This document shows positions 18,501 through 27,020 of a stretch of DNA of 64,000 nucleotides, piece after piece (the stretch's first letter is position 1; each line of letters opens with the position of its first letter). The notes under the pieces were generated by a model. That model saw only the letters and a program-made list of their open reading frames with translations. It ran no database searches and had not been told where the DNA came from. Source of the stretch: Paraeggerthella hongkongensis. GTDB lineage: Bacteria > Actinomycetota > Coriobacteriia > Coriobacteriales > Eggerthellaceae. The stretch lies in contig NZ_PPTQ01000003.1 of NCBI RefSeq assembly GCF_003340345.1, positions 1-64,000 on the forward strand. Direction: 5' to 3'. The position numbers and the translations under genes were made by a program.

Positions 18501-18563
18501 AGGCGGCCGAAGACGCGCGCAGCCGCCCGGCGACGGCTGCGCGCGTCTTCGGCCGCCTTGTTT
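18501..18563 (+). terminator. Very strong terminator after the vanZ-like gene
   Basis: A perfect 25-bp stem (18501-18525 with 18534-18558), 8-nt loop, then TGTTTT. The stem is much longer than usual terminators, so it might also act as an RNA-stabilising or bidirectional element. Confidence 0.85.
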
Positions 18564-18755: not shown

Positions 18756-19056
18756 CGGAAAGCGATTTTTCGTGCGCGCGCCTTCTCTGCATAGGAAACG
18801 CTGTCACCCATTTGATGAGACTGCCGCTTTGAGCGAGCGAGGCGCGTGGCAAAACGGCGTCTTCGAGCCGTGCCGATTTTGGCGTAGCGGCAAAGTTCGG
18901 AAAAACTTTTGCATAGGAATTTGTAAAGTTCTGTGGTATCGTGTCAAAAAGTTAGCCTTAGATAACATATTACTACTAAGCTAATAATATATTTCGCATG
19001 CATGTAATGCAGGGGAAAGCCCTTTGAAGCGGGCGGTTCGACACGAAAGGATATCC
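18756..19056 (+). promoter_or_regulatory. Promoter region of the heme operon with an AT-rich inverted repeat
   Basis: Base composition drops sharply toward A+T at 18900-18995. Facing half-sites TTAGCCTTAGATAA (18952-18965) and TTACTACTAAGCTAA (18970-18984) share TTAGC-TTAG; such TTAG/CTAA dyads recall DtxR/IdeR-type iron boxes. Iron control is what one expects for a heme uptake operon, but the site does not match a consensus closely and I could not assign a confident -35/-10. Confidence 0.5.
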
Positions 19057-20583
19057 ATGGAACATTCGATGAAGGCGGGCGTTGTCGCGCGAGGCTCCGC
19101 TGTTGCGCTGGCGTTTGCTTTGGCGGCGGGCGCAGTGCCGGCGCAGGCCATGGCTGTTGGCGCAGCGCCGATGCCGACTGCAGAGGCAGCGACGGGAAGC
19201 TCTGTCTCCTTGGATAAGGATAATCTTGCGAACGGAACTTATGCGGTTCCGGTGCGCATGTTGCAGGCTTCCAACTTGAGTTCGTCTCAGGGTTCGATTG
19301 CAAGCAGTGCGCTGGATCCGATTGGTTTGCTGACGGTGCGTCATGGGGCGTACACGCTCAGCCTCAATATGAGCGGGCAGGTTCTGGGTCAGTACTGCAA
19401 CTACCTGGGATATTTCGGGTCGTATCACGTGGATGGGAACGCGCTTGCCACCAACGGATCCGATGTTGCAGTTGTGGACTTTGGCGGCGAAGCCGGTAGG
19501 CCGTTCGTGGCGGATGTTCCTTTGGGCGAGGTTGCCAAGACTTCCGGTTACGTTGCGTTGCGACTTGGCGCGCAGGCCATGGGCGACAATCGCCAGACCG
19601 CTGCGGTCCTGATCGACTGGAGCGGCTTGACGGTTGACAGCCTTGACGGCGAGGGCCGACCCTTGGAGACCCTTGTCGATGAAGCCGCCGCCATCGCGCA
19701 GGGTGGCAAGAGCGACGAGGCGTATCGATCTTTGCAGGATGCTATCGCGCGCGCCCGTGCCGTTGTCGAAAAGGGCGCCGCTGCAACGCCGGAGGAGATC
19801 GTGGCTGCCGAAGCGGATTTGGCGTCGGCTATCGAGACGTTCAATGGCTCGCCTGATGCGGTCGACCCCGTTGTTCCGGAGGGTCCCGGAACCGAACAGC
19901 CTGCTCCGACGCCTGAAAAGCCGGGTACCGACGCCTCGAACGGAAACGGGAACTCGACGACAACTCCTTCGCAGCCTCAGCAGCCGAGCGCCGCTTCTTC
20001 TCGCGCCGAATACGTTGCCGGGCATACGTATGCCGTGCCTATGAAGTTTTACAAGGCGAATTCCGGCGAGCTGTCGATGGCCGATCAGTATTTCGGCGAC
20101 ACCGCTTACGTGGTTCCTCGTTCCGATGGCATGTTCGAAGTGCGCTTTACGACGAACAGGTCGGACTACGTCGAAAAACTCTCGTACGGCGGATACGCGG
20201 CCTCGGTGGTGAGCGAAAACGGCGCAAGCCGTACGTACAGCGTGGTGATCGCAGCTTCGAAGGATACCGTGGTGCTGCCCATCACGATGACCATCAAGCC
20301 CATGCGCGAAATGGGCGGCGGCGACGTGTCTGCCGACCTGCATCTGTATTTGGGAGATGCAAAGGTGAAGGATTTGGGGTCGGGCGACGCAGGTGTTCCG
20401 ACCAGCGGAAAGACCGGCAATAGCCCCGCTTCCGGCGGTGCGCAAGGTTCGTATCTGCCGAAGACCGGAGACGACGGCTTGGCTGTTGCCGCAGGAGCCG
20501 TTGCGGTTGCGGCGGGAGCGGTTGCGGTCGGCGCGGCAGCGCGGCGACGCTTTTCGCTGCAGGGGCGAGGGGAAGGTCGTTGA
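19057..20583 (+). CDS. Cell-wall-anchored NEAT-domain protein (two NEAT domains, LPKTG)
   Basis: A 508-residue surface protein: signal peptide (1-33), NEAT domain 1 (about 55-195, GTYAVPVRM...GAYTLSLNM), a helical linker, a Pro/Thr-rich stretch, NEAT domain 2 (about 325-445, HTYAVPMKFYKAN...MTIKPMREMGG), then the sortase signal LPKTG (467-471), a hydrophobic helix and an Arg-rich tail. NEAT domains bind heme or hemoglobin in Isd-type systems. I do not see the YxxxY heme-coordinating pair in either domain, so hemoglobin binding or another heme ligand is possible. The ATG at 19057 follows GAAAGGA. First gene of the heme operon; no sortase is encoded in the window. Confidence 0.88.
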   Translation: MEHSMKAGVVARGSAVALAFALAAGAVPAQAMAVGAAPMPTAEAATGSSVSLDKDNLANGTYAVPVRMLQASNLSSSQGSIASSALDPIGLLTVRHGAYTLSLNMSGQVLGQYCNYLGYFGSYHVDGNALATNGSDVAVVDFGGEAGRPFVADVPLGEVAKTSGYVALRLGAQAMGDNRQTAAVLIDWSGLTVDSLDGEGRPLETLVDEAAAIAQGGKSDEAYRSLQDAIARARAVVEKGAAATPEEIVAAEADLASAIETFNGSPDAVDPVVPEGPGTEQPAPTPEKPGTDASNGNGNSTTTPSQPQQPSAASSRAEYVAGHTYAVPMKFYKANSGELSMADQYFGDTAYVVPRSDGMFEVRFTTNRSDYVEKLSYGGYAASVVSENGASRTYSVVIAASKDTVVLPITMTIKPMREMGGGDVSADLHLYLGDAKVKDLGSGDAGVPTSGKTGNSPASGGAQGSYLPKTGDDGLAVAAGAVAVAAGAVAVGAAARRRFSLQGRGEGR

Positions 20584-20585
20584 AC

Positions 20586-21476
20586 GTGCGGTCATCGTTC
20601 GCCGTGAAGTCCTCGCGCGCGTTTGTCGCCGTTGTTGCCCTGGCGTTCTCTGCTGCGCTTTCCGTTGGCGGTTCTCCTGCTCATGCGGCAGTTTCATCGG
20701 TTTCGACAGCTGCGGTTCATGCGAGCTACGCTAATCCCGACACCGGCGTGATCGAGGATTCGGGCGGGCAGGCAAGCGAGGCTTTGGGGACGTCGATGAG
20801 CCAAGGCATTACCGGATCCTCGGCGCTTGTCGAGAAAGATGCGGACGGAAGCGAGTTCGTGACCATCAGGCTTTCCCAGGCTGACCAGATCGGCGAGGTC
20901 AGCATTGCCTCCGACGTCGATCGTACGGGCGTTTATTCCGAGGACGTTGCGGCCGAGATAATGCAGCGCGATGCCGAGCTCAATACGGCGGACTATCGTG
21001 CGCAGGTGGCATCGGCGCAGGCTACGTTGCGCATTTCGATGTACGTGCATCCCATGGGGCGCTCGGTGGTGTACTTCGTGCAGTTGTCCGATGCGGCTCC
21101 CGGAAACTCGGAAGGTTTTGTCGAAAGCATCGTTGCTGGCCAAGGGTCCGAGCAGGGCCAAGCGCCGGACGGTGGAACGGCTCGGGGATCGAGCGAAGCG
21201 TTGGAGGGTTCTGCCGCTTCAACTGCCGCGTCCGGCGATTCCGCAGGCTCGGGCGTGAGGGAGTTCGACGGCGAAGGTCGCGAGGTGACGGGCTCTGCCG
21301 CCCCGATCTTCGCTTCTCCCCAGACGTATGCGATTGCCGCGGTTGCAGCTACGGCGGCAGTCGCGGCCGTGGCTGCGACGTACTACCTGGCGTACGGTCG
21401 CAAGCGCAAGGCGCGAAGCGATAACGCTGCCGCAGCGGCAGCGGGGCATGGCGGCAGCGCGCCGCCCGAGGCTTAG
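20586..21476 (+). CDS. Shp-like heme-binding surface protein
   Basis: A 296-residue protein with an N-terminal signal peptide (about 1-36), a globular domain (about 40-175) starting YANPDTGVIEDSGG, a low-complexity Ser/Gly/Ala linker, a C-terminal transmembrane helix and a basic tail. This order and the YANP-TG-x-x-DSGG, GQG/SQGI and VTIRL segments resemble the streptococcal Shp family, which passes heme to a substrate-binding lipoprotein, here the next gene. The GTG at 20586 has GAGGGGAAGG 8 nt upstream; a TTG at 20580 is too close. It overlaps the upstream gene context tightly. Family assignment is from memory of the motif. Confidence 0.75.
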   Translation: MRSSFAVKSSRAFVAVVALAFSAALSVGGSPAHAAVSSVSTAAVHASYANPDTGVIEDSGGQASEALGTSMSQGITGSSALVEKDADGSEFVTIRLSQADQIGEVSIASDVDRTGVYSEDVAAEIMQRDAELNTADYRAQVASAQATLRISMYVHPMGRSVVYFVQLSDAAPGNSEGFVESIVAGQGSEQGQAPDGGTARGSSEALEGSAASTAASGDSAGSGVREFDGEGREVTGSAAPIFASPQTYAIAAVAATAAVAAVAATYYLAYGRKRKARSDNAAAAAAGHGGSAPPEA

Positions 21477-21487
21477 GGCTTCGTTGC

Positions 21488-22390
21488 ATGAGCGGGAGAA
21501 CGTTTGCCCGGGTTGGGCTTGCGGCGCTGTGTCTGGCTGTGCTGTGCGCCCTTTCCTCGTGCGTGGACCAGCATCCTGCGCGCGACGGCGGGGACGAGCG
21601 ATCGGGAAAGCGCATCGTGGCCACTTCGCCGGCCGTTGCAAGCATGTGCGATCGGCTTGACCTTGACCTGGTGGGCGTTCCCGCTACGTCGCGCGCATTG
21701 CCGCAGCGATACGGCGATGCGGAGGTGGTAGGCCCTCCTATGGGACCCGACCTGGAGAAATTGTCGATGTTGCGGCCCGATTGCATCGTGGCGCCCGGAT
21801 CGCTGCTGAACGACTTGCAGCCGAAGTTCGCCCAGATAGGAGTGCCTTCCATGTTCGTTGACCTGAACAGCGTGGAGGGCTTGCATCGCTCGATGGATTA
21901 CCTGGGCGTCGCTTTCGGGCGCGAAGCCGAGGCGCTGAAGGCGCGCGCTGAATACGAAGCGTTCATGACCGCGTATCGGCAGGGAATAGAAGGGCTTGCC
22001 CGTCCGCGCGTTTTGGTTCTCATGGGCGTTCCCGGGTCGTATTTGGTGGCGACGCCGCGAAGTTACGCGGGCAGCCTTGTGCAGCAGGCCGGTGGCGAAA
22101 ACGTGTACGCAGATGCTGCGGACGCATTCGTTAACGTGAGCGTCGAGGACATGCTCGATCGCGACCCGGATGTCATTTTGCGTACGTCACATGCTCTTCC
22201 CGACCAGGTCATGGAGATGTTCGCTCAGGAGTTTTCCTCGAACGACACGTGGAAGCACTTCCGTGCCGTGCGTGCGGGGCGCGTCTACGACCTTTCGCAT
22301 GAGCGATTCGGAATGAGCGCGACGTTTGCCTATCCGGAAGCGCTCGAAGAACTTAAGCCGCTGCTGTACGGCAACGGCGAAACCGTTTAG
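21488..22390 (+). CDS. Heme ABC transporter substrate-binding lipoprotein (IsdE-like)
   Basis: A 300-residue class III binding protein with a lipobox (LSSC, Cys25). It keeps candidate axial heme ligands in the places used by IsdE: Met53 in SPAVASMCDRL and His271 in LSHERFGMSATF. It should take heme from the NEAT/Shp proteins at the cell surface and deliver it to the permease. It lies 11 bp after the Shp-like gene and 11 bp before the permease gene. A siderophore or cobalamin binder is the alternative, but the NEAT context favours heme. Confidence 0.9.
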   Translation: MSGRTFARVGLAALCLAVLCALSSCVDQHPARDGGDERSGKRIVATSPAVASMCDRLDLDLVGVPATSRALPQRYGDAEVVGPPMGPDLEKLSMLRPDCIVAPGSLLNDLQPKFAQIGVPSMFVDLNSVEGLHRSMDYLGVAFGREAEALKARAEYEAFMTAYRQGIEGLARPRVLVLMGVPGSYLVATPRSYAGSLVQQAGGENVYADAADAFVNVSVEDMLDRDPDVILRTSHALPDQVMEMFAQEFSSNDTWKHFRAVRAGRVYDLSHERFGMSATFAYPEALEELKPLLYGNGETV

Positions 22391-22401
22391 GACAAGGAGC
22401 T

Positions 22402-23394
22402 ATGCGTAAAGCCAGAAATATCGCGGCATTCGCGCTTACAGTAGGTGCCGTGGCGGCGCTGTTCGCGTTCGCCGTCAATGCGGGCACGCTCAAGGTGCCT
22501 GTCGACGAGCTGCTTGCGGGCTTGTTTGTGGCCTACGACGATCGGGTTGCAACCATTTTCGACCTGCGCTTCCCCCGTATATTCATTGCGCTTGTGGCCG
22601 GCGCGTCCTTGGCTGTGTCGGGCGTGCTGCTGCAGGCGGCCGTGCGCAATCCTTTGGCGGATCCGGGCATTATCGGCGTCAACGCGGGCGCGTCGTTCGC
22701 TGCTATTTTGGTGACGGCGTTTGCACCCTCGCTGTTCTTTTTCATGCCGATTGCCGCGTGCGCAGGGGGCCTTCTTGCGTTCGCGCTGGTGTACGCGTTG
22801 TCGTGGAAAGGGGGAGCGCTCGCGCCTGTGCGCATCATCTTGACCGGCATCGCGATGAGCACTCTGTTCGCCGGGCTGTCTTCTGCGTTCAGCACGGGAT
22901 CGGGCGGGGTGTTGACGGGCGTTGCCAGCTTGGTTGATGCGAACATCTCGGCTAAAACGTGGAGCGATTTCTTCACGCTTGCGGGGTATGCGCTTGCCGG
23001 GTTGGTTCCGGCCCTGTTTGTTGCCAGGCGTTGCGATCTTTTGTCGCTGAGCGACGAGACGGCTGCTTCGCTTGGCGTGGACGTGACGAAAAACCGCCTG
23101 GTGGTTTCCGCTTTTGCCGTTTTGTTGGCATCGGTTGCCACGGCTATCGTGGGACCGATCAGCTTTTTAGGCTTGGTGGTCCCGCATTGTGCGCGCATTT
23201 TGGTGGGGTCGGGACACCGGCTGCTTATTCCGTATTCTATGGTGCTCGGCGCGTTTTGCCTGCTGTTGGCCGACACCGTGGGACGAACCATTGCCGCACC
23301 GTACGAGATTAGCGCCGCTGTCGTCATGTCGGTAGTGGGCGGCCCCGCGTTCATTTTGCTGCTGAGAAGGGCGCGTGATACGTATGGCGGGTAA
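22402..23394 (+). CDS. Heme ABC transporter permease (FecCD family)
   Basis: A 330-residue integral membrane protein with about ten helices and FecCD signatures: LRFPRIFIALVAGASLAVSG, QAAVRNPLADPGIIGVNAGA, and the coupling loop GPISFLGLVVPHCARILVG. It forms the channel for the IsdE-like lipoprotein. AAGGAG precedes the ATG by 5 nt. Its end overlaps the start of the ATPase gene by 20 nt, so production of the two is coupled. Confidence 0.94.
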   Translation: MRKARNIAAFALTVGAVAALFAFAVNAGTLKVPVDELLAGLFVAYDDRVATIFDLRFPRIFIALVAGASLAVSGVLLQAAVRNPLADPGIIGVNAGASFAAILVTAFAPSLFFFMPIAACAGGLLAFALVYALSWKGGALAPVRIILTGIAMSTLFAGLSSAFSTGSGGVLTGVASLVDANISAKTWSDFFTLAGYALAGLVPALFVARRCDLLSLSDETAASLGVDVTKNRLVVSAFAVLLASVATAIVGPISFLGLVVPHCARILVGSGHRLLIPYSMVLGAFCLLLADTVGRTIAAPYEISAAVVMSVVGGPAFILLLRRARDTYGG

Positions 23395-24169
23395 CGCGTT
23401 CACCCTTGAGGGCGTTGGATTTTCGTACGGGTCGACCCGCGTGTTCAAGGGACTGGATCTTGTCGTGCGCGAAGGGGCGGTGACCACGCTGCTCGGAGCG
23501 AACGGTTCCGGAAAGACAACGCTGTTCAACGTGATGACCAAGCGCCTCAAGCCGCAGGAAGGCCGGGTGTTCTTGCGCGCCGGAAACGTTGCGGACGTGC
23601 GTCCTGCGGACTTCGCCAAGTTGGTGTCGGTTGTGCATCAGCACAATATGGCTCCGGCTGACGCGGAGGTGCGAACTTTGGTCGGCTACGGGCGTTCTCC
23701 CTATCGAAAGCTGGGGGTGCGACGGTCTTTGCCCGATCGGGAGCAGGATGCTCGCATGATCGAGTGGGCTCTTGCTACCTGCGATTTGAAGGATGTCGAG
23801 CATCGCGTCATTTCGTCGCTTTCGGGCGGACAGCGCCAGCGCGTGTGGATGGCCATGGCGCTTGCCCAGGGGGCGAATGTGCTGCTGCTTGACGAGCCTA
23901 CCACGTTTTTGGATGTGCGCTACCAGCTGGAAATACTCAAGTTGGTGCGCATGCTCAACGAAGAGCACGGCATGACCGTGGTCATGGTGCTGCACGATAT
24001 GAATCAAGCCATCGAGTACAGCGATGAGATCGTGGCCTTGGTGCAGGGGCGGATTGTTGCGCAGGGAGCGCCGCACGATGTGGTGACCCCCGCTTTTCTA
24101 AGCCAGGTGTACGGAGTTGACCTGGACGTGGTGCGCGTACGGGGCAAGCCGTACGTGTTAGCGGTATGA
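23375..24169 (+). CDS. Heme ABC transporter ATP-binding protein
   Basis: A 264-residue ABC ATPase: Walker A GANGSGKTT near residue 43, Q loop, signature LSGGQRQRVWMAMAL, Walker B VLLLDEPTTFLD and switch histidine VLHDMNQ. It powers the FecCD-type permease with which it overlaps. The GTG at 23375 has AGAAGG 4 nt upstream; an ATG three codons later is possible. The gene ends 59 bp before the last NEAT gene. Confidence 0.94.
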   Translation: MIRMAGNAFTLEGVGFSYGSTRVFKGLDLVVREGAVTTLLGANGSGKTTLFNVMTKRLKPQEGRVFLRAGNVADVRPADFAKLVSVVHQHNMAPADAEVRTLVGYGRSPYRKLGVRRSLPDREQDARMIEWALATCDLKDVEHRVISSLSGGQRQRVWMAMALAQGANVLLLDEPTTFLDVRYQLEILKLVRMLNEEHGMTVVMVLHDMNQAIEYSDEIVALVQGRIVAQGAPHDVVTPAFLSQVYGVDLDVVRVRGKPYVLAV

Positions 24170-24228
24170 AAGCGGCTTTCCGCAAAAGGACAAGCTATAC
24201 GAAGAATCATGAGAAAGGAGCGAACGAT

Positions 24229-26943
24229 ATGACAAGTACGTTGCAACCGGTTCGCCGGGTATGCGCGGCTGCGTTGGCGCTTATGATAGCGCTGACGGGG
24301 TTGAGCATTACGCCGAGCGTGGCTCGAGCGGAGGGCGTCGCGCCGCCGCTCGATGCAGGGTCAAGCTATACGGTTTCGGTTGACGTCCATGACGCCGGCA
24401 ATCCTTCCGAGCCGTCGATGTCTGCCGGCATGTTGGCTAAAAACGCCGAGATCGACGTGGACGGTTCGGGTCGGGCGCGCATCACGCTGCACTTCGTGCC
24501 CGCCCAGATCATGGGCCTTGATGTGCATGCGAGCGACCTTGGCGTGTATGAAGAGGGTTCCCAGAGCAACTTCATCGAAGGGGTTTCGTTCAAGTTGGGC
24601 GAAGACAACTCCGCTATCTGCCAGTTCGTCTTGCCGTATGTGCCCAATGACGGCTTGTATCGCGTTGAGATGCGCTCTGACATCATGAACAGAGACGCGC
24701 TGTTGTATGTGAAATGGCCCACGTTGAAGAAGACGGGCGGCTTGGGCGATACGCTGGCCGGTTTGGTGGAAAGCGCCAAAAAGTACTCCGCGAACGACTA
24801 CACCGAGGATTCTTTCGGTAAGTTGAAGGCCGCGATTGCGGATGCGGATGCGGTTCTTGCCAATCCTGATTCGACGCCCGAACAGTTCCAGGCGTCGATC
24901 GACGCCGTCAACAACGCTGTTCAGGGGCTGAACGCTGCGGCGAAAAGCCCCTTTGAAGCGGGTCGTACCTACTATGTCGACGTGACCGATCAGGACCCCA
25001 CGGGAAGTCGAGCGCTTGACCTTGAAGCCCGGTTCGACGTTGACGAAGCCGGCACCATCAAGGCGACGCTGCGTTTCAACCCGTACTCTGATTTTCTAGG
25101 AGCCTATCAGGTGTCGGCGGCAACGCTTCTCGATCGCGAAGGGGAGGCCGCTGCGAACAATGCGATCGAGCAGCATGACGACGGCGGGGCAACCTGGACG
25201 TTCGATCTGCCTTACTTCGCAAGCACCGGTCTGTACAAGGCGAAGGTGACGGCAACTTCGGCCAGTCCCGACAAAATACATACCCTGGCATTCGACTGGA
25301 GCACGATTCGCACCACGGCAGACTTCCGCAAGCTTGCCGCGGCCATAGAGAAGGCCTCCGGTCTTGCCGCGCCGGCCTACACGGCGTCGAGCTTCGCCGT
25401 GCTTTCCGAGGCGCTTGCTCGAGCCAAGGACGTGGCTGCCGACACCTCTCACGCGCAGACGACGGTCAACGACGCGCTCGCGGCGTTGACCGAGGCGATG
25501 GATAAGCTTTCCATTGCGGAGAATGCGGGTAGCGGCAATACGGTTAACCTGGGTATTTCCGGATTCAACGCCCCGTTTTCGGACGAGAGCGCTCCGGGCA
25601 AGCCCTGGGCTGGCAGCCGTGTATACTTCGGCAAGGACGACCAAGGGAAGCCGATTTCCTGGAGGGTTCTGCAGACTTCCAAGGATGGGGTCCTGCTCAA
25701 TTCGGAGCACACCGTTACCGGTCAGGCATGGAACACCGATATGTCCATTCCTGCCAGCGAGTTGTTCTGGAATACCGCCACGCTGCGTACGTACCTGAAC
25801 GACGAGTGGTTCAACAAGACGTTCGACGCACTGTCCAAGGAAGCGGTGAAGACCACGGAAGTGAAGTCGTTGTCTTTGGCGGACGCATCGAAAGAGGTGG
25901 CGCCTGCCACGCAGGACAAGGTTTTCGCGCTTTCGATACAGGATTACCGGAACAAGGCTTACGGGTTCGTTTCCAATGAATCGCGTGCGGCGAAGGAGAT
26001 ATCGCTTTTGACTCGCACGACCGACGAAAGCATGTCGTTCATGACGATGGTCTTGATTGTTCTGCCAGACGGAGACCTTGAAAGCGGCTTCAACACTATG
26101 ATGCCCTATACCCCCAATCTGGGAGTTCAGCCCGGTATCACGCTTGATCCGAGCAAGGTTTTGTTGACTACGCCGGCGTCTGCGGCGGCTCCTTCGGGCA
26201 TTCAGAAGCCTTTGGCCACCGAAGATAACGCTTGGAAACTCACGCTGATCAACGATGATTGGAAGTTCGATGCGAGCAGCCCTCGCGTTGACGGCGAAAA
26301 GATCTCCGTAGAGTATGCGGCCAACGCCTCCCCTTCTGGTCGAATGTCGCGAAGCGCCGTCCTCGATCAGGATGATCGCGTAGTGTCCGCCCTTGTGGTG
26401 CGCGGTGGCGATTGGAGGACCGGTACCCCTGTCGGCTACGGCACCGTGGGCAAGGTTTCGGGCGAGAGCGGTTCGGTTTCATTTGAGCTGCCCGCCGATT
26501 TCAATAAAGAAACCGACAAGCTTTACCTGTTCGCAGAGCGAATTGGCGAAGGTGCCGAGAGCAATATCGCAACGATGCCCGTAGAAGTGAGCGTTCCCGA
26601 TGCCGAGGAGCCTCCGGCTCCGGAGCCGAACGACCCCAGCACTCCGGGCGGGGACGCCCCGGGAAATTCCAACGCGTCTGACAAGCCTGTTCCATCGAAT
26701 CCTGGAAATGCCGGGACGTCCGGGTCCTCGCCTGCGCCGTCTGGCGGCCAGGGCCAGGCCGCCGGGTCGACTGATGCGGCGAAGGTCGTTGCTGCAAAAA
26801 CGGACAGCCGTGCAGCGGCGCAAGCTATTCCCAAGACGGGAGACGCTGTTTTCCCCGCTGCAGCATTTGCTGGCATTGCCGGTGCGGCGGCAGCGTTGTC
26901 GCTGATTGCGGTGCGCGCCTATCGTCGTAAGTTGGAGGGTTAG
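24229..26943 (+). CDS. Large cell-wall-anchored NEAT-domain protein with DUF6273-like domain (IPKTG)
   Basis: A 904-residue surface protein. Order: signal peptide (1-34), NEAT domain 1 (about 40-165), FIVAR-like three-helix bundle (about 175-238), NEAT domain 2 (about 243-365), a second FIVAR-like bundle (about 370-435), a DUF6273-like domain (about 445-620; VYFGKDDQGKPISWRVLQ, LLNSEHT), an Ig-like/unknown region, a Pro-rich spacer and a C-terminal anchor: IPKTG at 867-871, hydrophobic helix, basic tail. The anchor has Ile instead of Leu in the sortase motif. The ATG at 24229 follows AAAGGAG by 8 nt; the frame extends 21 codons upstream without a site. Likely heme/hemoglobin capture at the surface. 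Confidence 0.87.
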   Translation: MTSTLQPVRRVCAAALALMIALTGLSITPSVARAEGVAPPLDAGSSYTVSVDVHDAGNPSEPSMSAGMLAKNAEIDVDGSGRARITLHFVPAQIMGLDVHASDLGVYEEGSQSNFIEGVSFKLGEDNSAICQFVLPYVPNDGLYRVEMRSDIMNRDALLYVKWPTLKKTGGLGDTLAGLVESAKKYSANDYTEDSFGKLKAAIADADAVLANPDSTPEQFQASIDAVNNAVQGLNAAAKSPFEAGRTYYVDVTDQDPTGSRALDLEARFDVDEAGTIKATLRFNPYSDFLGAYQVSAATLLDREGEAAANNAIEQHDDGGATWTFDLPYFASTGLYKAKVTATSASPDKIHTLAFDWSTIRTTADFRKLAAAIEKASGLAAPAYTASSFAVLSEALARAKDVAADTSHAQTTVNDALAALTEAMDKLSIAENAGSGNTVNLGISGFNAPFSDESAPGKPWAGSRVYFGKDDQGKPISWRVLQTSKDGVLLNSEHTVTGQAWNTDMSIPASELFWNTATLRTYLNDEWFNKTFDALSKEAVKTTEVKSLSLADASKEVAPATQDKVFALSIQDYRNKAYGFVSNESRAAKEISLLTRTTDESMSFMTMVLIVLPDGDLESGFNTMMPYTPNLGVQPGITLDPSKVLLTTPASAAAPSGIQKPLATEDNAWKLTLINDDWKFDASSPRVDGEKISVEYAANASPSGRMSRSAVLDQDDRVVSALVVRGGDWRTGTPVGYGTVGKVSGESGSVSFELPADFNKETDKLYLFAERIGEGAESNIATMPVEVSVPDAEEPPAPEPNDPSTPGGDAPGNSNASDKPVPSNPGNAGTSGSSPAPSGGQGQAAGSTDAAKVVAAKTDSRAAAQAIPKTGDAVFPAAAFAGIAGAAAALSLIAVRAYRRKLEG

Positions 26944-26982: not shown

Positions 26983-27020
26983 CGGGCCTCGCCTGGCTTG
27001 AAAACCGAAGGCGAGGCCCG
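26983..27020. terminator. Convergent hairpin after the heme operon
   Basis: An 11-bp GC stem (CGGGCCTCGCC with GGCGAGGCCCG) with a 16-nt loop lies 40 bp after the heme operon and 74 bp from the end of the converging NUDIX gene. T runs are weak on both sides. Confidence 0.5.

Follow-up and report, generated by a model that had tools for sequence, protein, structure and literature searches.

A stretch of DNA from the 2.86-Mb draft genome of Paraeggerthella hongkongensis, the first 64,000 nucleotides of contig NZ_PPTQ01000003.1 (the window), carries a six-gene operon (genes A to F, 18951-26943) that encodes NEAT and Shp proteins together with the parts of a transporter. P. hongkongensis, a member of the Eggerthellaceae, has been isolated from human blood, and NEAT-based heme relays are regarded as mainly a trait of Firmicutes. 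According to a 2021 review, the heme-binding domains that Actinobacteria display are different ones (PMC7815599). We regard it as very likely that this is an iron-regulated heme-uptake operon of the Shr-Shp-HtsABC type, to which F would add an accessory surface protein.

The six open reading frames lie on the forward strand in the order A-B-C-D-E-F, with short gaps or overlaps between them. B begins with TTG and overlaps the stop of A, and F begins with ATG 59 nucleotides after the stop of E. The chosen starts of A, B and F are supported by a ribosome-binding-site-like stretch (a good one in the case of F), and those of C, D and E are the first starts of their open frames. Gene A (19057-20583) encodes a 508-residue protein that matches NEAT PF05031 (59.2 bits, cut-off 32.8, E 7e-16) and ends in LPKTG, and gene B (20580-21476) a 298-residue Shp with a C-terminal hydrophobic segment (PF11545, 167.1 bits, cut-off 26.4, E 3e-49). 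Gene C (21488-22390) encodes a lipoprotein with a lipobox-like LSSC and a Peripla_BP_2 domain (E 5e-36), gene D (22402-23394) a FecCD-family permease (PF01032, E 3e-81), gene E (23375-24169) an ABC ATPase (PF00005, E 2e-29), and gene F (24229-26943) a surface protein of 904 residues. The original prediction, made by reading the sequence without database searches, had proposed six genes in one direction, with a NEAT surface protein, a Shp-like protein, a permease and an ATPase among the products, and these assignments are borne out.

In the mechanism that we propose, A would be sorted to the cell wall at LPKTG and would strip heme from a hemoprotein by means of its NEAT - three-helix linker - NEAT unit. 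The heme would be handed to membrane-anchored B through methionine-ligated pockets, and from B to C by axial-ligand replacement, Met73 and Met159 of B being exchanged for Met85 and His235 of C. This step is modelled on the transfer from Shp to HtsA, for which axial-ligand replacement has been described (PMC5026354). D and E would then import the heme.

Predicted heme ligands in proteins A, B and C

The axial ligands of Shp are Met66 and Met153 (PMC5026354). Met73 and Met159 of B align with these residues; in the alignment with the solved Shp structure 2q7a (E 1.5e-13) they correspond to chain residues 38 and 125, which are 87 apart, as are 66 and 153. Among 21 Shp rows the distal methionine is present in all 21 and the proximal methionine in 19, with isoleucine in L043 and L045. 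This set includes an accessory Shp-like protein from locus L046, and leaves aside L077, L012, L024 and two genomes from outside the family. The two Shp-domain proteins with isoleucine (L045:4108-5790 and L043:2085-2960) have no transporter genes in their fetched stretches.

Lipoprotein C matches the IsdE equivalog model TIGR03659 (334.5 bits, cut-off 298.65), and its closest solved relatives are Lmo2184 (5joq, E 4e-67) and IsdE (2q8p, E 5e-58), the HtsA-named entry 3eiw being far weaker (E 9e-12). An IsdE double mutant, M78A/H229A, has been published (PMC7815599). Met49 and His200 of the 2q8p chain, 151 residues apart, align with Met85 and His235 of C, which are the predicted heme ligands. The original prediction was right about a heme lipoprotein but had named Met53 and His271 as its ligands; this pair is rejected because the alignment places Met78/His229 of IsdE at Met85/His235 and IsdE has glutamate at the position of His271. 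The residue spacings used in these alignments match those of the published ligands (151 for IsdE, 87 for Shp and 110 for Shr NEAT2).

It would also be conceivable that the operon uses heme-like receptors to import a different tetrapyrrole or an iron chelate, such as a corrinoid or an iron-free porphyrin. D and E resemble several NCBIfam models of siderophore, heme and B12 transporters, none of them over its cut-off among the matches listed, which would fit such a cargo. The IsdE equivalog match over its cut-off and the conserved Met/His positions in C, together with the heme-type pocket methionines of B and of the second NEAT domain of A, speak for heme, and we consider another cargo highly improbable.

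Protein A consists of a signal peptide, a NEAT domain (N1), a FIVAR-like three-helix linker (a weak FIVAR match of 15.9 bits, below cut-off), a second NEAT domain (N2) and LPKTG. A Pfam search at E up to 1 returned NEAT and the weak FIVAR match only, with no additional domains of the Shr type. For N1 (residues about 50-196, 19204-19644) the closest solved structure by profile is Shr NEAT2 (9w5y, E 1e-14). The heme ligands of Shr NEAT2 are Met997 and Met1107, and a single methionine sufficed to hold heme (PMC12796733). The corresponding residues of N1 are Ile81 and Met175, so that N1 retains the proximal methionine and has one of the two.

N2 (residues about 319-435, 20011-20361), the membrane-proximal domain, is weakly similar to IsdC in sequence, and Met341 and Met416 are its likely heme ligands, as predicted from the alignment of relatives. 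When one NEAT domain was chosen per protein, 16 of 17 rows had the distal methionine and all 17 the proximal one; only four columns of this alignment are invariant, the proximal methionine among them. As with Shp, the rows come from related species, some of them congeneric, so the conservation counts do not represent independent events. A scan of all 52 NEAT stretches (one of them Shp) shows that, in other genera, the methionine sites are not constant among the N-terminal copies. In one genus (L038, L039 and L040) the A homologues have five NEAT stretches each, in which the methionine sites vary in the N-terminal copies and are retained in the last.

Both domains are predicted to adopt a NEAT fold, with model block confidences mostly of 79-91 for N1 and of 82-88 for N2. 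The N2 model matches a NEAT5 mutant of IsdX2 (4h8q; VIA Z 15.7, root-mean-square deviation (rmsd) 2.1 over 112 residues). Foldseek ranks hemoglobin-bound constructs with two NEAT domains, from IsdH and IsdB, as the best matches of A, with E between 2.2e-11 and 1.9e-10 in the first five rows. Since rmsd over the whole chains exceeds 20 A, these matches support no more than the single-domain folds and the arrangement of a helical linker between two NEAT domains. The Shr NEAT entries 9w5y and 9w5z are not among the fold matches listed for A and F, which is no argument against them.

These matches bear on whether the operon could be a true Isd-type system, with tyrosine-ligated NEAT domains and Shp as the equivalent of IsdC. 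Besides the IsdH and IsdB fold matches, the IsdE equivalog C, the weak IsdC similarity of N2 and a class B sortase in the genome point in this direction. The tyrosine motif argues otherwise: the only YxxxY of A lies at residue 119, in mid-domain and off the ligand position, F has none, and in B it occurs only near the C-terminal hydrophobic segment. N1 is nearest to Shr NEAT2, Shp is present, and no IsdG/IsdI-type heme oxygenase (ABM domain) was matched in this genome, which is 99.89% complete, while 11 of 14 control genomes gave a match. An Isd-type system is thus improbable. The earlier remark that YxxxY is not visible in A was correct for the ligand position, and methionine pairs are the likely answer to the question of the ligand that it left open. 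The earlier description of the operon as an Isd-like heme acquisition system stands as regards heme acquisition, which is well supported, while "Isd-like" is too specific given the relationship of N1 and the missing tyrosine motif; an Isd flavour persists in C, in N2 and in the IsdH/IsdB-like build of A.

Iron boxes, genomic setting and the fate of heme

Upstream of A lies the palindrome GTTAGCCTTAGATAAC (GTTAG-N6-ATAAC, 18951-18966), with one mismatch to GTTAGN6CTAAC, a candidate DtxR/Fur-type iron box. It overlaps a promoter-like site (18959-18988), of which there are two in the region against 1.7 expected. Of 16 upstream regions tested, 8 have the box with no more than one mismatch, among them that of the accessory gene of L046. 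Five of the 19 boxes in the genome lie at most 250 nucleotides upstream of iron genes (a tally without a control), namely the operon, feoB and DtxR-type, FUR-type and Peripla_BP_2 genes. The operon is probably iron-controlled.

Boxes were located at G000:C23:150191-154500 (L104), C6:66262 (L097) and C51:31894 (L106), and the FUR-type gene forms a divergent pair with an ABC transporter gene. The box sites at feoB, the DtxR-type gene, the FUR-type gene and ABC transporter, and the substrate-binding-protein gene make up a candidate regulon for iron in Paraeggerthella. A box also lies at most 50 nucleotides upstream of each of three genes for Trep_Strep (PF09605) membrane proteins (L099:3463-4137, L099:9388-10002 and L100:7962-8573), which suggests that these may serve the uptake of iron or iron chelates.

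Ahead of the operon, on the forward strand, is a terminator-like hairpin (18506-18553) whose stem has 20 pairs. Terminator-like sites number 15 in the region against 12.7 expected in shuffles, and this hairpin has the longest stem by far. An inverted repeat at about 26984-27019, past the stop of F, was spotted by eye and is missing from the scan list. The upstream neighbours belong by Pfam to the TetR, flavodoxin-like, isochorismatase and VanZ families, those downstream are NUDIX, HSP20 and phosphoesterase genes, and no heme gene was found by Pfam among the ten flanking neighbours scanned. NEAT matches in the genome are confined to the operon, where A exceeds the cut-off and the Shp gene stays under it.

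One sortase-like gene is present elsewhere in the genome, and NCBIfam assigns it to class B sortases (158.1 bits against 153.75). The genome also has a ferrochelatase gene, and imported heme may be used as an iron source or as a spare cofactor.

Several of these results weigh against an iron-regulated heme-uptake operon of the Shr-Shp-HtsABC type. The box is missing from the other eight of the 16 upstream regions, and the 19 sites in the genome compare with 38 for a backwards control, so that the number of boxes proves nothing about enrichment. Isoleucine occupies the distal ligand position of N1, and the N-terminal NEAT copies of other genera are variable at the methionine sites. The Pfam match of the sortase (23.6 bits) is under its cut-off of 26.6, although the NCBIfam match passes. 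As to what would become of the heme, no ABM domain was found in the genome, its HutW-like matches, at 172.4 and 117.9 bits, fall short of the cut-off of 400 and have counterparts in all 14 control genomes, and the presence of ferrochelatase means that heme need not be essential as a cofactor.

The accessory surface protein F

F consists of a signal peptide, a NEAT/Shp-like domain (F1), FIVAR, a NEAT-like domain (F2), FIVAR, DUF6273 and IPKTG. FIVAR, present in two stretches, reaches 34.9 bits (cut-off 29.2), and the core match to DUF6273 (PF19789, residues 509-577, 25753-25959) 34.0 bits (cut-off 23.5). The original prediction of a NEAT/FIVAR/DUF6273-like protein is upheld for FIVAR and DUF6273, and for F1 by profile comparison and predicted fold; a direct Pfam search at E up to 1 found neither NEAT nor Shp in F.

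F1 (residues 39-167, 24343-24729) was compared by hhalign with an alignment of 20 Shp rows sharing no sequences with it, giving a probability of 94.7% and E 6.4e-8; against N1 of A the probability was 80.6%. The hhalign figures exclude L046:6790-7218, a sequence whose sharing had inflated the comparison of F1 with Shp to E 1.1e-15. Iterated searches in the small library of fetched loci gave inflated figures as well, since included members raise their own scores. The F1 model has block confidences of 62-83, which are moderate, and was built from an alignment of four sequences, the L046 one included. It matches IsdX1 (VIA Z 13.2, rmsd 2.5 over 114 residues) and Shp 2q7a (VIA Z 9.5). Among solved structures, a small F1/F2 profile gave only weak matches (9w5y, E 0.03; 2q7a, E 0.49). 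Together these comparisons suggest that F1 is a NEAT beta-sandwich with a remote similarity to Shp, in which Met64 (or Met68) and Met153 are the predicted heme ligands.

F2 (residues about 242-363, 24952-25317) gave hhalign probabilities of 96.4% against F1, 28.8% against Shp and 15.6% against N1 of A. It has no methionine at either ligand position and is a probable NEAT-like paralogue of F1, an assignment resting mainly on this paralogy. The original prediction had named structure prediction as a check on the NEAT and Shp folds; N2 of A and F1 come out as NEAT structures at the Z values given above, but the F2 model is of low confidence (blocks 40-77). Blocks of about 22-41 make the model of the DUF6273 part too low in confidence to use for its fold.

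Downstream of the operon, F occurs among the fetched stretches only in the two Paraeggerthella genomes (the second being L027). The F of P. hongkongensis DSM 16106 is 99% identical to that of the window. A scan of contigs with two short peptide patterns, which may miss relatives, found one locus, in P. hongkongensis only. In 395 genomes of the order, 34 had a match to F at E 1e-5; these comprise one long, distant homologue of 37% identity (L077, genome G024), an N-terminal match in genome G048 and short matches in other parts. The homologue lies away from the operon, has a DUF6273 match of 46 bits, and carries cell-wall-binding repeats at its end and no sorting signal. With the Pfam Shp model (cut-off 26.4) it scored 20.2 bits, below the cut-off, and the L046 protein 33.8 bits, above it. 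L077 has four sites with at most two mismatches to the iron box against 2.05 expected, a number that 24 of 200 shuffles reach and that alone is not significant. Three of the four lie in the 236 nucleotides before the F homologue, and one is perfect and ends 20 nucleotides before the likely ATG.

G048 has a frame of 499 residues (L046:6631-8130) with a Shp-like domain that has both methionines, followed by MBG-like repeats. It lies directly upstream of the NEAT gene A, is preceded by two iron-type boxes, and appears to encode another accessory Shp-like surface protein.

F may act as an accessory wall-anchored protein that captures hemoproteins or glycoproteins. F1, as a Shp-like NEAT domain, could hold heme between its methionines, F2, having no ligand, may attach to protein instead, and a glycan or glycoprotein of the host may be the target of the DUF6273 part. 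Carried further, F would be a new class of hemoprotein receptor, combining a methionine-ligated Shp-like NEAT domain with a ligand-free one, three-helix linkers like those of IsdH and IsdB, and a possibly lectin-like DUF6273 part docking on host glycoproteins, so that a gut anaerobe of the Actinomycetota could strip (perhaps ferrous) heme and pass it into a methionine relay; we put this forward as a tentative and rather doubtful proposal.

A heme-binding role of F is weakened by three results. A plain hidden Markov model (HMM) of the 20 Shp rows had no match in the F of the window (L046 gave 23.8 bits and L077 13.1 bits), the similarity of F1 to N2 of A is absent without a helper sequence (hhalign probability 0.5%), and the homologue in L077 retains the proximal methionine of F1 and has lost the distal one. 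The last result, the missing methionines of F2, the remoteness of the similarity between F1 and Shp and the position of F after the operon in two Paraeggerthella genomes only would suit an unrelated adhesin that is merely downstream, whose NEAT-like domains bind protein or glycan and not heme. So would the C-type-lectin-like fold reported from models for DUF6273-like phage domains (PMC10743442). Against an adhesin stand the Shp-like F1 with both methionines present in the F of the window, the perfect box just before the gene of the homologue in G024, and the start of F so close behind E. Such an adhesin is possible, if somewhat unlikely.

Distribution and relation to known systems

Within the family, Shp was found in 12 of 48 genera, with 21 of 138 genomes positive. 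The counts are 23 of 395 genomes for the order, 21 of these in the family of the window, and 3 of 396 genomes for a sample across the phylum, all three in that family. Twenty stretches of the family were fetched; the wider context of the Shp locus of G088 (L012, a short contig) and of G364 and G377, which lie outside the family, is not part of this set. The genes A-B-C-D-E occur in this order in 15 of the 20, one of them from the sister Paraeggerthella, with A cut or short in L035 and L042. Contig ends interrupt three of the remaining stretches (from two genomes), and the other two have Shp without transporter genes.

The type of operon is already known from the Shr-Shp-Hts, Cht and Isd systems. 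The streptococcal operon has the gene order Shr-Shp-HtsABC, and Shr carries additional domains, namely hemoglobin-binding repeats and leucine-rich repeats. As in the Shr-Shp-HtsABC (SiaABC) system of Streptococcus pyogenes, the operon encodes a NEAT surface protein, Shp, a lipoprotein, a permease and an ATPase, both methionine positions of Shp are kept, and N1 of A is nearest to Shr NEAT2. It differs in that A is short (508 residues), with FIVAR-like helices and no further Pfam domains, in that IsdE is a closer relative of C than the HtsA-named entry is, and in the extra gene F. The original prediction had seen here a mixture of Staphylococcus-type NEAT and Streptococcus-type Shp parts. This is misleading, because S. 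pyogenes itself joins Shr NEAT domains with Shp and HtsABC, NEAT and Shp together being the streptococcal plan, and because the gene order is shared within the family.

The Cht system of Clostridium perfringens (ChtD, ChtE and ChtA) likewise has NEAT proteins without the tyrosines, and its Shp-like ChtE and HtsA-like ChtA retain the Met/His residues (PMC5026354). The operon differs from Cht in having neither a sortase gene nor an ATPase-bearing pair, and in having gene F. In L029 (3372-6883) and L042 (1-3452), paired frames of about 600 residues with similarity to ABC ATPases lie directly downstream of the ATPase gene, and are reminiscent of the Cht permease/ATPase fusions ChtC2 and ChtC3. With the Isd system of Staphylococcus aureus (IsdB, IsdH, IsdC and IsdE) the operon shares an IsdE-family lipoprotein and the build of A, which resembles that of IsdH N2-N3 and of IsdB; unlike Isd, it has no tyrosine motif where the ligand would lie, carries Shp in place of IsdC and comes from a genome that gave no match to an IsdG-type domain.

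NEAT proteins of 'Eggerthella sp.', a related actinobacterium, were listed by Honsa et al. (2014), one domain being without SxxxxY and YxxxY (PMC4143258); the passages considered describe no Shp/transporter operon, methionine ligands or F-type protein. A literature search, which left the 'haem' spelling and most subscription journals uncovered, found nothing on heme uptake by Eggerthella lenta or on NEAT domains of Coriobacteri- taxa, and among the titles listed for Paraeggerthella and heme none concerned heme uptake. Within the literature covered, the Shr-Shp-like operon in Eggerthellaceae, the methionine ligands predicted there and the architecture of F are new.

Methionine ligation in NEAT domains was presented in 2025 as a characteristic of S. 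pyogenes (PMC12796733), although ChtE of C. perfringens had already been noted to have Shp-type methionines (PMC5026354). A Shr-Shp-Hts-like operon with kept methionines in Eggerthellaceae would widen both this statement and the view of NEAT relays as a trait of Firmicutes. If the proposed relay is real, it would provide a testable route to host heme for gut anaerobes.

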